Below are positions 13,361 through 18,802 of a stretch of DNA of 64,000 bases, piece by piece; position 1 is the first letter of the stretch; each line of letters opens with the position of its first letter. Below the pieces are notes generated by a model. The model was not told the origin of the DNA, ran no database searches, and saw nothing but the letters and a program-made list of their open reading frames with translations. The position numbers and the translations under genes were made by a program. Source of the stretch: Sheuella amnicola (GTDB lineage: Bacteria > Pseudomonadota > Gammaproteobacteria > Burkholderiales > Burkholderiaceae_B); assembly GCF_010499255.1 (NCBI RefSeq), contig NZ_JAAGRN010000003.1:186001-250000 (forward strand). Reading direction: 5' to 3'.

Positions 13361-13558
13361 ATGTCTTTTCTTCGGTTTATTTCGATTCTGATTGTTACCG
13401 TTACGACAGCCGGATGCGCGTGCACAGACAAAGTGTGCATGGCGCCAGATGGTTCACCCGGATTGTGGAGCGATGTTGCAATCCTGCCGGACATGACGAA
13501 TTCGCCCGAGCTTAAGCGAACGCCAGACGGCTTCGATCCCCCGTTTAACTACTACTGA
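13361..13558 (+). CDS. Small lipoprotein with three clustered cysteines
   Basis: This 65-residue protein has a short signal sequence (MSFLRFISILIVTVT) and a lipobox-like TAGC giving lipidated Cys19. Two further cysteines follow at 21 and 26. The rest is acidic and proline-rich and ends in DPPFNYY. GGGA precedes the ATG. I do not recognise the family. It reads in the same direction as the flavin operon but is separated from it by a small hairpin and a separate promoter, so it is a neighbour rather than a proven member. It may be anchored in the outer or inner membrane. Confidence 0.65.
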   Translation: MSFLRFISILIVTVTTAGCACTDKVCMAPDGSPGLWSDVAILPDMTNSPELKRTPDGFDPPFNYY

Positions 13559-13568
13559 TACTTTGCAT

Positions 13569-13587
13569 AGCGATTGATTTAATCGCT
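13569..13587 (+). repeat. Small inverted repeat after the lipoprotein gene
   Basis: AGCGATT and AATCGCT are perfect arms around a five-base loop, 11 bases beyond the lipoprotein stop. It could be a weak terminator or part of the regulatory region of the following operon; no strong T-tract follows. Confidence 0.4.
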
Positions 13588-13590
13588 TAT

Positions 13591-13619
13591 TTGACTTATT
13601 GAATACGAATCATTATCAT
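13591..13619 (+). promoter_or_regulatory. Sigma-70 promoter overlapped by a Fur-box-like sequence
   Basis: TTGACT at 13591-13596 and TATCAT at 13614-13619 match the -35 and -10 hexamers at five of six bases each, with an ideal 17-base spacer. The 19 bases at 13599-13617 match the classical Fur consensus at 13 positions, including an unbroken run of ten (AATCATTATC). A Fur dimer bound here would cover the -10 element. It lies 34 bases upstream of the start at 13653 and has GGAAAG as a possible ribosome binding site downstream. Confidence 0.65.
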
Positions 13620-13652
13620 TTGCTTTTGCATTAAAACGGAAAGCAAACTCGT

Positions 13653-14543
13653 ATGAAACTACGCGCAAAACTTGGAGCTTTACTTTTTGGGGGGTGCCTT
13701 CCATTCTCCGCCATGTCGGGTGAAGGTGTTTTCGGATGGCTGTACACCCTTGATCTTCAGCCTAAAGGTGCCATAGAGCTCGAGCAAAAGATTGACTACA
13801 CAACTGGACACGCAACTGGTAGCTATAACTTGTGGAAAAGCAAAACCGGCATCGAGTACGGGTTAACAAACGACATCCAGGTCACAGGTTATCTGGATGC
13901 CTATTCGGTCAATGCAAAACAAAACTATCATCAGTGCGATGACATCTCCCCCTGCACTGCCGGGTTTGGCGTACCGGGCTCGGCCAATGGTTTGAATTCC
14001 TATTCCAAGACAGCGGTCAATGGCGGTTCGGCCGAAGTAATCTGGCGCATCACCAATCCAGTCACTTCTCCGGTCGGTGTTGGTCTGTATTTCGAACCAT
14101 CAATCGGCAGTCTCTCGGAGTCGTTTGAGATGAGGCTTTTGTTGCAATCCAACTTTCTTGATGATCGACTCATCCTGGCGGCAAACTTTATTGCAGAAAC
14201 TGAGAAATTCAAATTCGATCCCGCCGAGACGATTTACGAATCTTCTTTCGATATTCGTTATGGAGCATCTTACCGGTTCGCACCGAATTGGTCCGCAGGC
14301 GTAGAGGGCAGATTTCATAACGACTTTGAAGGAAGCTGGTACGGCAAACAAATCCAGCGGGCGAACTTTATCGGCCCCAACCTTCACTATGGCGGTAAAG
14401 ACTGGTGGTTTACGGCGGCATGGCTTTATCAACTTGGTGGTCAATGCTGGGCTCCCGGCGATGCCGAATGCTCAAACGGTCGCGTCTGGGACAGCCACGG
14501 CAACAATCAATTCATGTTTAAAGTAGGGATGCCGTTGCAATGA
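13653..14543 (+). CDS. Putative outer-membrane beta-barrel protein of the flavin operon
   Basis: This 296-residue protein has an N-terminal signal peptide (to about residue 22, FSAMSGEG) and then alternating hydrophobic/aromatic segments typical of outer-membrane beta-strands, for example GIEYGLTNDIQVTGYLDAY and FDIRYGASYRFAPNWSAGVE. I think it resembles the uncharacterised family labelled DUF6662, from memory. Four cysteines are present, in QCDDISPC and near the C-terminus. It overlaps the next gene by four bases (ATGA), so translation is coupled. A role as a porin-like partner of the periplasmic flavoprotein is inference. Confidence 0.7.
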   Translation: MKLRAKLGALLFGGCLPFSAMSGEGVFGWLYTLDLQPKGAIELEQKIDYTTGHATGSYNLWKSKTGIEYGLTNDIQVTGYLDAYSVNAKQNYHQCDDISPCTAGFGVPGSANGLNSYSKTAVNGGSAEVIWRITNPVTSPVGVGLYFEPSIGSLSESFEMRLLLQSNFLDDRLILAANFIAETEKFKFDPAETIYESSFDIRYGASYRFAPNWSAGVEGRFHNDFEGSWYGKQIQRANFIGPNLHYGGKDWWFTAAWLYQLGGQCWAPGDAECSNGRVWDSHGNNQFMFKVGMPLQ

Positions 14544-15100
14544 AACTCCAGTTCAAATGGATGCCATTACTCGGCACCGCCGCCTTTGCTCTGAGTCCTG
14601 CATCGGCTATCTACGCCGCACCGGCAAAAATATATGTCTCAGTGCAACAAGCTCAGCAACTCATGTACGGAACGAGCCATTTTGCCCACCACCCCATCAT
14701 CCTGACAAAGGATATGCAAAGGGAAATGCGCTCTGCTTCATCGGTGAGCCACCCTTTCGACGGATCCCGTATCTGGAAAACAGATTCCGGAAAATGGTTC
14801 GTCGTGGATGAAGTCGTCGGCAAACATGAAATGATTACTTATGCGCTTGGCCTAAGCGCCGAGGGGGTCGTAGAGCATGTCGAAATACTCGAATACAGGG
14901 AGTCATACGGTTATGAAGTTGCCCACACAGCGTGGCGCAATCAGTTCATTGGCAAAACATCCCAGTCTACGATCAAACTGAATCAGGACATCGAAAATGT
15001 ATCGGGAGCAACGCTATCAGCCAAGCACCTGACCGATGGAATCAAGCGCGTGCTTGTCATGTTCGATCTCTCACTTAAACGAGGACAACATGGATCTTGA
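14540..15100 (+). CDS. Exported FMN-binding domain protein
   Basis: This 186-residue protein has a signal peptide (cleavage near AIYA-AP, residue 26) and a C-terminal FMN-binding domain of the RnfG/NqrC/NosR type. The flavinylation motif is SGATLS at residues 155-160, where Thr158 would carry covalently bound FMN through a phosphoester. It is a single-domain periplasmic electron carrier in prediction. It overlaps the outer-membrane gene before it and the ApbE gene after it, and the adjacent ApbE is the enzyme expected to attach its cofactor. Confidence 0.85.
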   Translation: MKLQFKWMPLLGTAAFALSPASAIYAAPAKIYVSVQQAQQLMYGTSHFAHHPIILTKDMQREMRSASSVSHPFDGSRIWKTDSGKWFVVDEVVGKHEMITYALGLSAEGVVEHVEILEYRESYGYEVAHTAWRNQFIGKTSQSTIKLNQDIENVSGATLSAKHLTDGIKRVLVMFDLSLKRGQHGS

Positions 15101-15845
15101 AAGGCGTTGCCGCCCCCTATTGGGCACTTATGTCGAAATCGGCGTGGACAAGCATGTCGAAGCGATCGAATCCGCTTTCGCATCGATCGAAAAGGTGCAA
15201 AAACTGATGTCTTTTCATCAACATGACAGCGATTTAAGCCGAATCAACCAATCGAGCTCCGGACAATCTCTTCAAGTGGATCCATGGACTTGGTCCGTTT
15301 TGAAACGAGCCATCGAGATGTATCACAACACGCGGGGGGCTTTTGATTGTGCAATTCAGGGAGACTTGTCTGACATTCACCTATGCAAACACAACATCGT
15401 TCGTATAGATGACTCGGTATTGCTTGATCTTGGCGGGATTGCAAAAGGATTCGCAGTCGATCAGGCGATCGAAACATTGCAACTATCTGGTGTCGATCAA
15501 GCGATTGTGAACGCAGGGGGAGACCTACGGGTCTACGGTGACGATCCAAGACTGATTACCGTGCGAGATCCGAATCGACCATCCGGCGTGATTCCCGCCG
15601 GATATCTTACCTGCGGCTCAATCGCTACATCCGCCCCCTACTTTTCCTATCAGCAAAATGCATCAAATGAAACATGTGCACTCATGAACCCGTTTACCAG
15701 ATTGTCCATTTGCGACCTGAAAAGCTATTCCGTCATTGCGCCTAACTGCATGGATGCAGATGCACTCACTAAAGCGCTTGCTGTCCACCAAAATCCAGAT
15801 GCCGATTACTTCAAAATATACAAGGCGCACGCGTTATTGCAATGA
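15090..15845 (+). CDS. apbE: FAD:protein FMN transferase (ApbE)
   Basis: ApbE transfers FMN from FAD to a threonine in FMN-binding domains. The start at 15090 (MDLERRCRPLLGTYVEI) has GAGG upstream and gives 251 residues; an earlier in-frame ATG at 15036 adds nothing family-like. Motifs seen: DLGGIAKGFAVD, VNAGGDLRVYG, and the Mg-binding end NCMDADALTKAL. Unlike most bacterial ApbE proteins it shows no signal peptide or lipobox, which is odd because its expected target is exported. It overlaps the flavoprotein gene by 11 bases and the next gene by four. Confidence 0.88.
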   Translation: MDLERRCRPLLGTYVEIGVDKHVEAIESAFASIEKVQKLMSFHQHDSDLSRINQSSSGQSLQVDPWTWSVLKRAIEMYHNTRGAFDCAIQGDLSDIHLCKHNIVRIDDSVLLDLGGIAKGFAVDQAIETLQLSGVDQAIVNAGGDLRVYGDDPRLITVRDPNRPSGVIPAGYLTCGSIATSAPYFSYQQNASNETCALMNPFTRLSICDLKSYSVIAPNCMDADALTKALAVHQNPDADYFKIYKAHALLQ

Positions 15846-16285
15846 GTACAAAAATCCGCCCACAACCGGGTCGAATGTTGAAATGGCATCGACAAATCAG
15901 CTATTGGGTTATTGGCTTGTGTTGCTTAAGTGGTGTTGGTTGGTTTGCGCTTCAAGTGGCGACGGATCAAATGCCGGCTCAACTTAAACCCTGGTGGCTG
16001 GCACATGGCGTGACCGGTTTGACAGCCCTTGTGATCCTTGGCGCGGCCTTGCCTCAACATGTCATCGTGACTTGGCGTAACGGACGAAATCGATTCGCCG
16101 GGGCATGTTGCCTTCTTTGCTTAGCCATCCTTGCAATGACTGCGATGATGCTCTTTTATGCCCCCGAAACATTCAGATCCACGTCGTTCTGGCTGCACAG
16201 TGCTGCAGGATTATTATTGTGCCTGATGTTCCCATTACATGTAATTAAAGGGAAAATCTCTAAACAAGCAGCGCTACGGCCTTGA
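15842..16285 (+). CDS. Four-helix membrane protein with paired histidines (possible b-type cytochrome)
   Basis: This 147-residue protein has four predicted membrane helices at about 19-40, 52-76, 84-107 and 115-137. Histidines sit in pairs on helix 2 (His55, His73) and helix 4 (His119, His133), with His16 before helix 1. That arrangement is like di-haem b-type cytochromes that take electrons from quinol, but haem binding is inference. The start overlaps the apbE stop (ATGA). The end overlaps the modC gene on the opposite strand by 26 bases. I do not recognise a named family with certainty. Confidence 0.7.
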   Translation: MSTKIRPQPGRMLKWHRQISYWVIGLCCLSGVGWFALQVATDQMPAQLKPWWLAHGVTGLTALVILGAALPQHVIVTWRNGRNRFAGACCLLCLAILAMTAMMLFYAPETFRSTSFWLHSAAGLLLCLMFPLHVIKGKISKQAALRP

Positions 16286-17324
16286 TTTGAGCCCAAACAG
16301 TTTGTCCGGCGAGAAGGTTCAATCTTCTCGTGGATGCTTGCGAAATGCGTGCCAGTAATTTTTGATCAAAGTGATCCCCGGCGCCCAACTCGACCAGCAC
16401 TTGGCCATTCAACGTTTCGCGCAACGACAAAATCCTGGTCTGCAATATGTTCAGCACACTACTATCGGTATGATGACTTAAAGCAATGCTGACATCGCGC
16501 GCTTGAAGTCGTACTCTCACCACTTCACCGCAGCATTGTTGCGCGCCTTGTCCAAACAAAACCCCCAGAGGACTTTGCAACGTCAACATCCCCGTCGCAT
16601 CCCGAGCAACGACGGTGGCCGGCACAACAATTCCAGCATCATCCCTAAGCGCCAGTGGCACATCCGGACGATTAATCACTTCGAAAGCATTTCCGGCGTG
16701 TCGAACCTGCCCCGCACGCATTAGCACCAGATAATCGGCCAGGCGCGACATTTCATCGACCGCGTGGGTAACATAAATCATCGGAATCGATGTGAGTTGT
16801 TTCAACTGCTCCAAGTAGCGCAGGATTTCGGAACGCCTGGCCGCATCCAGGGCGGCCAATGGCTCGTCAAACAACAACACGTCAGGTTGCGTCAGCAAGG
16901 CCCGGCCAAGTGCAATACGTTGCCGTTCGCCACCTGACAGTTGTGAAATTTTGCGATTAAATAATGGTGCCAAATCCAGTTGTGCAACGCAATCGTCGAA
17001 TTGAGATTGACTACCCGCTGCGCGTCTCCAGCCAAAACGCAAATTATCCTGAACGGATAAATGGGGCAACAAGCCGGCGTGCTGAAACACAAAACCGACC
17101 CTGCGCTGATGTGGAGGGACAAACAAATCATCTTTTTGCCAGCATTGTCCATTCATCATGACTATGCCGCGCACATCCGGCTCCAACCCTGCGATCGCCC
17201 GCAAAATCGTAGTTTTGCCACCCCCTGAGGGTCCGAATATGACCGTGGTCCCTTTCGAAGGAAGCTCAAGTGCGATATTTAGCCTGAAGTCAGCACGATC
17301 AAGTTTGAGGGCAAGGTTGATCAT
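16260..17324 (-). CDS. modC: Molybdate ABC transporter ATP-binding protein
   Basis: This is the ATPase of the ModABC molybdate importer, 354 residues. Walker A is FGPSGGGKTT near residue 33, the ABC signature is LSGGERQRIALGRALL, and Walker B is VLLFDEPLAALD. The last 120 residues form a TOBE/Mop-like domain typical of ModC. It overlaps modB by four bases and runs head-on into the end of the flavin operon with a 26-base overlap. Confidence 0.95.
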   Translation of the reverse strand: MINLALKLDRADFRLNIALELPSKGTTVIFGPSGGGKTTILRAIAGLEPDVRGIVMMNGQCWQKDDLFVPPHQRRVGFVFQHAGLLPHLSVQDNLRFGWRRAAGSQSQFDDCVAQLDLAPLFNRKISQLSGGERQRIALGRALLTQPDVLLFDEPLAALDAARRSEILRYLEQLKQLTSIPMIYVTHAVDEMSRLADYLVLMRAGQVRHAGNAFEVINRPDVPLALRDDAGIVVPATVVARDATGMLTLQSPLGVLFGQGAQQCCGEVVRVRLQARDVSIALSHHTDSSVLNILQTRILSLRETLNGQVLVELGAGDHFDQKLLARISQASTRRLNLLAGQTVWAQIKAVALLV

Positions 17325-18004
17325 GACATCCTCGTTGTCTGATGACGCCCATTAGCGTAGAGATGCATCACCAGCAAAACCATAAAGGAAAAAGCCAATA
17401 AACCCGCAGCAATCCAATGCGCATCCTGATAGGCCATACCCTCTACTTTGTCGTACAACAGAACTGATAGCACGCGCGTCTGACCTTCGATATTGCCGCC
17501 GACCATCAAAATCACGCCGAACTCTCCAACCGTGTGGGCGAACCCCATCACCGTTGCAGTCAAAAAGGCCGGCCGACACATCGGAACAACGACATGCATG
17601 AAACGATCGAATGGTCCTGCCCTTAAAGTCGAGGCCACATCAAGCACCACCGGATCAAGCGAAGCGAATCCCGCTTGAAGCGGTTGCACAACGAATGGCA
17701 ATGAATAGATCACCGATGCAAACAGCAATCCGGAAAATGTAAATGCTAACGAGCCGATACCCAAGAAGTCTGTTAGTTTGCCTATCGGTCCGTCAGGCCC
17801 CATCATGACCAGAAAATAAAACCCGAGAACAGTGGGTGGTAGCACCATGGGCAAAGCCACCAACGCAGACAGCGGTGTTTTAAAAACAGAGCGAGTTCGC
17901 GCCAACCACCAGGCAAGAGGCGTACCGAGCAAAAGCAAAATCAGCGTGGTCAGGCTTGCCAATTTAAGAGTGACAAACAGCGCTGGCCAAAGGAAGCTCA
18001 ACAT
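17321..18004 (-). CDS. modB: Molybdate ABC transporter permease
   Basis: This 227-residue inner-membrane permease of the molybdate importer has about five to six helices. The conserved LPMVLPPTVLGFYFL segment after helix 1 and the coupling-loop block around FMHVVVPMCRPAFLTATVMGFAHTVGEFG are typical of ModB. It lies between modA and modC on the minus strand. Confidence 0.95.
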   Translation of the reverse strand: MLSFLWPALFVTLKLASLTTLILLLLGTPLAWWLARTRSVFKTPLSALVALPMVLPPTVLGFYFLVMMGPDGPIGKLTDFLGIGSLAFTFSGLLFASVIYSLPFVVQPLQAGFASLDPVVLDVASTLRAGPFDRFMHVVVPMCRPAFLTATVMGFAHTVGEFGVILMVGGNIEGQTRVLSVLLYDKVEGMAYQDAHWIAAGLLAFSFMVLLVMHLYANGRHQTTRMS

Positions 18005-18034
18005 ATATGATTAACCGTTCCTGATCGCAACGAC

Positions 18035-18802
18035 TTAATCATAGCCGTGTGACACGATAATCCGACGCGCATCTTCACTTTTCAGATAGCGCATGAAAGC
18101 CATTGCTGCCGGGTTGGCTTCACCCTTTTTGAGAATAACTGCTGCCTGGATAATAGGGGTGTGCCACTCCTGAGGAATGATCCAGCCATTAAATGCTCTC
18201 TTTTGAGTCTGCCTTGCCTCCAGAACCATGGACTGAGGTAAAAATCCCGCTTGCGCGTTGCCACTAAAAACGAACTGGGCAGCTTGTCCAATGTTTTCGG
18301 CCATCACTATTCTATTTTCAGCCATTTGTCTCAATCCCAGATGCTCAAGGGTCTGAATCGCAGCTTTTCCGTAAGGCGCCAGTTCCGGGTTGGCAATGGC
18401 CAATTTTTTGAATTGCAGATGGCGCAATATGTGTTCGGGCGAGAGGCTATCCTGCTGGTTGATCGTTACGAAAACCAGTCGACCTCTCGCATAGTCATAG
18501 AGAGTCGATTCAACCGCCAAACCATCCCGAATTAGTCGCTCCGGTGTCTGGCGGTCAGCCGAAAGCAACACATCAAAAGGCGCCCCTTGAGTAATCTGTG
18601 CATAGAATTTGCCGGTCGACGCAGTGCTAATTGAGACCTGGTAGCCGGAAATTTCGGAAAAATGACGAACTAGTTCTTTTGCACTATTAGCAAAGTTGCT
18701 GGCAACGGCCAAACTCAATGAATTCGCATGGGCGAGCGTCGAAAAACTAAAAATAATCAATAAAATCAAATGATTAATTATTTTTTTCTTAATCCAAATC
18801 AT
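18035..18802 (-). CDS. modA: Molybdate ABC transporter substrate-binding protein
   Basis: This periplasmic molybdate-binding protein has 255 residues. A signal peptide with an unusually Ile-rich core ends at about THAHA/NSLSLAVASNF. The family features AVASNFANSAKEL, STGKFYAQITQGAPFDVLLS and the C-terminal region are present. It is the first gene of modABC and is divergent from moaA across 140 bases. An imperfect hairpin, TTACCC with GGGTAA, lies at 18842-18866 in that gap; I see no clear ModE site. Confidence 0.93.
   Translation of the reverse strand: MIWIKKKIINHLILLIIFSFSTLAHANSLSLAVASNFANSAKELVRHFSEISGYQVSISTASTGKFYAQITQGAPFDVLLSADRQTPERLIRDGLAVESTLYDYARGRLVFVTINQQDSLSPEHILRHLQFKKLAIANPELAPYGKAAIQTLEHLGLRQMAENRIVMAENIGQAAQFVFSGNAQAGFLPQSMVLEARQTQKRAFNGWIIPQEWHTPIIQAAVILKKGEANPAAMAFMRYLKSEDARRIIVSHGYD

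Follow-up and report, generated by a model that had tools for sequence, protein, structure and literature searches.

The four overlapping genes at 13653-16285 of a 64,000-nt stretch of Sheuella amnicola DNA (contig NZ_JAAGRN010000003.1, positions 186,001 to 250,000; hereafter the window) form a conserved operon that carries a Fur box and probably encodes a Fur-repressed, assimilatory ferric-iron reductase of the cell envelope that feeds FeoB. The composition of the operon and its Fur box are well supported, and the reaction is what we infer from them. All four open reading frames (ORFs) lie on the plus strand, and successive ORFs overlap by 4, 11 and 4 bp; a preliminary description of this DNA had noted four tightly overlapping genes. 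The first gene (13653-14543, 296 aa) encodes a DUF6662 outer-membrane protein with a signal-like N-terminus and a predicted 12-stranded barrel, and the second (14540-15100, 186 aa) encodes an FMN_bind protein with a signal-like N-terminus and the motif DIENVSGAT158LS. The third gene (15090-15845, 251 aa) encodes an ApbE-family FAD:protein FMN transferase without a signal peptide, and the fourth (15842-16285) encodes a four-helix membrane protein with His55 and His73 in helix 2 and His119 and His133 in helix 4. When the operon proteins were scanned against NCBIfam, only matches below the cut-offs were obtained, and a Pfam scan found no PepSY membrane protein among the four ORFs.

The Fur box, AATACGAATCATTATCATT at 13602-13620 on the plus strand, overlaps the spacer and the -10 element of a sigma-70-like promoter (TTGACT-17 bp-TATCAT, 13591-13619, plus strand). 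The promoter matches the consensus at 10 of 12 positions, so the near-consensus sequence noted earlier is present; promoter-like sites in the region did not exceed those in shuffled sequence, however (6 observed against 4.6, sd 1.9), and the promoter alone thus proves little. The box matched 13 of 19 positions of the Fur consensus. When the 200 bp upstream were shuffled 2000 times, 5.6% of the shuffles did as well, and the match is weak taken alone. The conservation of the box was then measured in 78 upstream regions from the window and its relatives, which were collapsed by similarity to 61. A site with at least 13 of 19 matches was found in 51 of the 61 non-redundant upstreams. Shuffled sequences reached this score in 9.3% of cases, and the upstreams of 353 other genes from these loci in 7.6%; for sites with at least 14 matches the numbers were 38 of 61, 1.9% and 1.1%, respectively.

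The same box was found before iron genes in the organism's own 3.18-Mb genome. The pattern GAATNATTATCATT has exactly two exact copies there and six more with one mismatch, and the reversed pattern, used as a control, does not occur. The second exact copy lies just upstream of an FbpA-type gene, which encodes a protein similar to ferric-binding proteins of solved structure (best E 2.4e-140), and the 19-mer at 13602-13620 is identical, letter for letter, to the 19 bases before this gene. Of the six sites with a single mismatch, one lies shortly before feoA-feoB. The genes that contain or adjoin the remaining five have no evident iron role; three of their proteins, from two of the five loci, were scanned with Pfam. 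One Fur-family protein was found in the genome. The conservation in relatives together with the identical 19-mer strongly supports the Fur box first proposed from the 13-of-19 match, and the shared box and the Fur-family protein, which would bind it, make the operon a probable member of the Fur regulon.

The gene order was conserved well beyond this genome. Genome contigs were scanned with the window's FMN_bind protein as the seed, and the best 80 of 101 loci were kept; since the scan was seeded with FMN_bind, only the presence of the other three genes is evidence of linkage. These 80 loci came mostly from Polynucleobacter and unclassified betaproteobacteria, and also from Duganella, Pseudacidovorax, Polaromonas, Acinetobacter and others. 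The gene order was visible in relatives by BLAST, and operon loci were found across Beta-, Gamma- and Alphaproteobacteria. The complete set was present in 73 of the best 80, and five of the other seven loci reach a contig end. In L085 the barrel gene lies on the opposite strand, L086 is a true exception, and in L013 the barrel gene was seen as two pieces. Profiles were then applied to 94 loci (the best 80, L127, L128, L161-L167 and five loci on plasmids), and the alignments behind the profiles contain these relatives. Some genomes contributed two loci each, and identical FMN_bind ends occur in a few. All four genes were near each other on the same strand in 78 of the 94. The incomplete sets were 10 with FMN_bind, ApbE and cytochrome, four that lacked only the cytochrome and two with only the barrel and FMN_bind.

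Among closer kin the distribution is patchy. The operon was found in 2 of 32 genomes of the genus, including that of the window, and the contig of the second genome is identical to L007; in the family it was found in 3 of 151 genomes, again including that of the window, and two of these three have a porin-like gene instead of the DUF6662 barrel. No plasmid DNA similar to the operon was found, and eight plasmid records showed similarity at the protein level. L070, in a record titled as a Beijerinckiaceae metagenome-assembled genome, has a four-gene copy with 51% identity in FMN_bind, which may reflect misbinning or transfer.

The product of 14540-15100 matched FMN_bind (PF04205) with 37.3 bits at a cut-off of 22, and the flavinylation motif S155-G-A-T158-L-S is present, with T158 invariant in 80 of 80 aligned sequences. 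The exported-type FMN-binding protein with an SGATLS motif that had been described was thus recovered, and the sequence supports it as a flavin acceptor and a candidate for covalent FMN on Thr158. In PMC12052999 the motif is given as D-x-x-[ST]...GA[ST], and the window protein has more residues between Asp150 and S155-G-A-T. The 12-residue mean hydropathy of its N-terminus was only 1.5, below the threshold of 1.8, and 62 of 78 relatives passed; export is therefore read partly from the relatives. W7, near the N-terminus of the signal peptide (14540-14620), is kept in 97% of 80 sequences, which is unusual for a signal peptide. The FMN_bind profile also matches RnfG chains. In the organism's genome, which comprises 36 contigs and is 98.65% complete, the FMN_bind gene and the ApbE gene of the operon are the only ones of their kind. 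No second copy of either was found in it, the two PF02424 matches being halves of the same gene, and a supply of flavin through Rnf or Nqr was rejected on this ground.

The four-helix protein gave only Pfam matches below the cut-off, among them Ni_hydr_CYTB (prokaryotic cytochrome b561) and Ferric_reduct. Its structural model had a pLDDT of 91. In an alignment of 78 sequences H55, H73 and H119 were present throughout and H133 was kept in 99%, in agreement with the paired histidines noted before. The product of 15842-16285 is a probable dihaem cytochrome b. DUF4405 (PF14358) was matched at E 0.1 or better by 18 of 30 members (best 8e-6), and not by the window protein. Searches of the PDB by sequence with the cytochrome profile, and with the barrel profile, gave nothing useful.

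The first gene product matched DUF6662 (PF20367) with 46.1 bits at a cut-off of 27, and all 31 barrel members that were scanned matched this family at E 0.01 or better. Together with the 12 predicted strands this agrees with the barrel-like outer-membrane protein proposed earlier. The predicted barrel resembles FapF, COG4313, autotransporter domains and KdgM, that is, small channels and protein translocators. A literature search for DUF6662 found no publication. The preliminary description had gone further and let electrons pass to the periplasm or the cell surface. In porin-cytochrome conduits of the MtrAB type a multihaem or other redox protein runs through a wide barrel. In most of the examined loci FMN_bind is preceded by the gene of an outer-membrane protein, as would be expected if the operon delivered electrons to an extracellular or outer-membrane acceptor with the barrel as the conduit. 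However, the small number of strands and the likeness to channels and translocators argue against this. A CXXCH motif is absent from all four proteins, and the set offers no component that would span the barrel. The barrel itself has no redox motif. The barrel as electron conduit was rejected, and we consider surface export very improbable.

More than one kind of outer-membrane protein accompanies the FMN_bind gene. When genomes of the window's class were searched with the FMN_bind profile, 96 of 369 matched; eight matches, among them that in the organism's own genome, were strong with E values of 2.0e-52 or better, and the rest were at E 1.9e-19 or weaker. In 22 of 30 loci retrieved from this search (L129-L158) a different, porin-like gene adjoins FMN_bind. 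Ten porin-type loci were fetched with wider flanks, and nine of them showed the order porin-like gene, FMN_bind and an ORF of 238-277 aa; in the tenth, L175, the porin-like gene was visible only in its version L142. Both of the two third-position ORFs that were scanned matched PepSY_TM. The order of porin-like gene, FMN_bind and membrane-sized ORF occurs in many genomes of the class (L169-L178, L137-L157), and six of nine porin upstreams scanned had a Fur-like match of 13 or 14 of 19, two of the six lying within the start of the called ORF. The two barrel types stand in tandem in L162, the porin of which is above the Porin_O_P cut-off. The porin of L239 did not reach the BBP2 cut-off, and L238 and L240 have long ORFs ahead of FMN_bind that had no family match. 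Since porin-like and DUF6662 genes both precede FMN_bind, at least two kinds of outer-membrane partner take part in a recurrent module, in which the gene for an outer-membrane protein stands together with those for a flavoprotein and a cytochrome-like membrane protein.

The third gene product clearly belongs to the ApbE family (PF02424, 154.8 bits, cut-off 25.6), and it is unusual. Only nine residues precede LLGT, and no strongly hydrophobic stretch is gained when the ORF is extended to its longest possible start. Neither a signal peptide nor a lipobox, one of which is typical of ApbE proteins though not universal, was found. ApbE matches were present in 78 of the best 80 loci and 72 could be parsed; 66 of the 72 have at most 12 residues before LLGT, and in the six with longer N-termini the measure applied showed no hydrophobic segment. 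As controls we took the 30 ApbE loci with the highest scores in the phylum, which lean to canonical enzymes and leave out shorter ApbEs, and 19 of the 24 that could be parsed were signal-like, with the hydropathy threshold being a 10-residue mean of 2.0 for controls and a 12-residue mean of 1.8 for the operon class. This replaced a cruder first control (13 of 20 signal-like, 10 of 30 loci unparsed). Four shorter ApbEs were fetched (L122, L123, L124 and L126), and their motif could not be parsed. At L122, in another genome, an ApbE that also seems to lack a signal is encoded next to an Nqr/Rnf-like gene and a gene whose product carries a flavinylation motif.

The active site is altered as well. 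The threonine of the ADxxxT motif, a metal ligand, is Lys228 in the window, and lysine was found in 81 of 81 parsed loci (88 were given, with one duplicate contig), compared to threonine in all 24 parsed controls. Further relatives carry ADALTK, the motif of the window, in L127, L128, L237, L238, L239 and L240, and ADAMTK in L241. Ser181 was kept in 79 of 80 sequences and Asp224 in 79 of 80, with a gap in the other. The catalytic His position is Ala197 in the window and His in 32 of 80, with the mapping falling in a gappy stretch of the alignment. The Ser/His/Asp catalytic triad is described in PMC12052999 and was transferred to the window protein by alignment. The window ApbE also lacks the loop after FDCAIQ (15345-15390) that is kept by most relatives displayed; L069 lacks it too.

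These changes, together with the missing signal peptide, could mean that the ApbE homologue has another FAD-linked job, such as FAD hydrolysis, and that FMN_bind binds its flavin only loosely or receives it from a different enzyme. This is unlikely in our view, since no other ApbE gene was found in the genome, the FMN_bind protein keeps the full flavinylation motif with its invariant Thr158, FMN_bind and ApbE genes occur together in 92 of the 94 loci, and Ser181 and Asp224 are kept. The earlier assignment of an ApbE enzyme that attaches FMN thus holds for the family and two catalytic residues, and the place and chemistry of the reaction are qualified by the missing signal peptide, Lys228 and Ala197. 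In PMC12052999 an early study is reported to have found the periplasmic location of ApbE essential, cytoplasmic ApbEs are said to exist, with a soluble fumarate reductase as the target in Klebsiella, and the minimal flavinylation motif is given as seven residues. An unfolded substrate is in our reading conceivable with so short a motif. An ApbE without a signal, an exported-looking substrate and altered residues suggest flavin attachment before export or altered chemistry, and because the ApbE lacks a signal peptide, attachment in the cytoplasm is the most likely. We tentatively propose, as an idea with perhaps a minor chance of being right, that a clade of ApbEs with ADxLTK, a dispensable catalytic His and no export signal flavinylates the unfolded preprotein in the cytoplasm, that Sec then exports it loaded with FMN, and that the recurrent module here is a siderophore-independent iron reductase.

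Taken as a ferric-iron reductase, the operon would work as follows. During iron shortage Fur would leave 13602-13620 and the four genes would be made together. The ApbE-family protein would load FMN from FAD, most likely in the cytoplasm onto the substrate before its export. Two bis-His haems b in the four-helix protein would carry electrons across the inner membrane, and these electrons, probably from quinol, would pass to FMN on Thr158 of the periplasmic FMN_bind protein. The flavin would reduce ferric iron that had entered via the DUF6662 barrel as small ferric complexes or was held by FbpA, and FeoAB, the genes of which are preceded by a box of this kind, would import the ferrous product. 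The preliminary proposal of an iron-repressed electron chain was supported by the conserved operon, the box in common with iron genes and the cytochrome-b-like and flavin-acceptor proteins, and not with respect to electrons crossing the outer membrane. Iron reduction and assimilation is the likeliest use; reduction of ferric iron was the use it had tentatively suggested.

The surroundings of related loci give a mixed picture of the substrate. In the genome G192 the operon set comes after imelysin, DHOR, imelysin and DUF1513 genes that share its strand, with a Fur-like site (13 of 19) before the first imelysin gene, and imelysins are called likely iron-uptake proteins in PMC3143127. The same locus has a 150-aa membrane-like ORF in the cytochrome position (L125:3669-4121), which had no Pfam match and was not recognised as a relative of the window cytochrome. 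Neighbourhood as general proof of an iron function was rejected: 10 of 143 neighbouring ORFs were scanned and one was TonB-receptor-like. Several loci speak against a purely iron-related role. L127 and L128, from the same family as the window, have PQQ (L127) or SoxYZ (L128) genes near a CCP_MauG gene, L239 has a cytochrome c peroxidase gene nearby, and L238 has copper-oxidase and ferritin-like genes. No convincing Fur site was found in the five loci L127, L128, L162, L163 and L164, two of which have a DUF6662 barrel. In L127 and L128 the order FMN_bind-ApbE-cytochrome comes after a coiled-coil porin-like gene and the CCP_MauG gene, and the same core may perhaps serve another substrate there.

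Such neighbours, CCP_MauG, PQQ, SoxYZ and copper-oxidase genes, would also fit an iron-sparing flavoprotein carrier that brings electrons to a periplasmic acceptor such as peroxide, oxidised thiols or copper, with the barrel present for another purpose. Iron-sparing use of flavin was raised in a 2021 survey (PMC8238504). However, the putative cytochrome would itself need two haems, and the box common to fbpA and feoAB, together with the imelysin linkage in G192, points to uptake. We regard this carrier as unlikely, although less so than the loss of ApbE function or surface export, and favour the ferric-iron reductase.

The immediate flanks of the operon in the window are as follows. A 65-aa ORF (13361-13558, plus strand) with a lipoprotein-like N-terminus, by eye, and no Pfam family above the cut-off lies between a methylisocitrate-lyase-like gene and the operon, and a terminator-like hairpin (13569-13587) lies 3' of it. 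Molybdate transporter genes (16260-18802, minus strand) are convergent with the operon; modC was above the NCBIfam cut-off, and modA and modB were assigned by eye. The modABC genes were also found in the genus members searched. The operon occurs in only those two genus genomes, but no clean empty site was found, and a recent insertion at this site was not upheld.

The operon is related in kind to Fur-controlled PepSY/flavinylation clusters, built from other parts. PepSY-like flavinylation clusters (Meheust et al. 2021, PMC8238504) share with it an ApbE, an exported substrate and a cytochrome-like membrane protein; they are reported there to be Fur-repressed in Shewanella and Caulobacter and to include DUF2271 and DUF4198 frequently, and iron reduction has been proposed for them. 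Unlike them, the window has a four-helix protein in place of PepSY, an FMN_bind substrate, a DUF6662 barrel and a signal-less ApbE. DUF4405/FezC cytochromes (Huang et al. 2024, PMC11334425) likewise have four conserved membrane histidines and a gene beside apbE, but are described as six-helix proteins, whereas the window protein has four helices. The Klebsiella cytoplasmic ApbE (PMC12052999) also lacks a signal peptide; its target is soluble, whereas the window substrate looks exported. In Caulobacter CC_3059-3063 (PMC3751524) apbE is likewise among iron-responsive, Fur-regulated genes, next to entries for a transporter, DUF2271, DUF4198 and a sulfite reductase flavoprotein (haem), and no DUF6662 is named in that passage. 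RnfG and NqrC subunits also combine an FMN_bind domain with a flavinylation motif, but there are no Rnf or Nqr genes in the window operon. Among the publications listed, which mostly do not cover subscription journals, none describes this operon by title or the start of the abstract, and a search combining PepSY, FMN-binding and porin also found none. The words porin and imelysin are absent from the main text of two flavinylation surveys.

One TonB Plug protein was found in the organism's own genome, and it is nearest to BtuB; its gene adjoins a metH-like ORF, an identity assigned by reading alone. This organism, in which the one TonB receptor found is BtuB-like, thus belongs to the bacteria in which siderophore receptors seem to be missing; for these the operon is a four-gene candidate for a ferric reductase, and DUF6662 gains a functional context. 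The conserved mismatch between a signal-less flavin transferase and an exported-looking substrate bears on how covalent flavoproteins are made. If flavinylation does precede export, a supply of FAD to the periplasm would be unnecessary, and the assembly of covalent flavoproteins would follow a new order of events.

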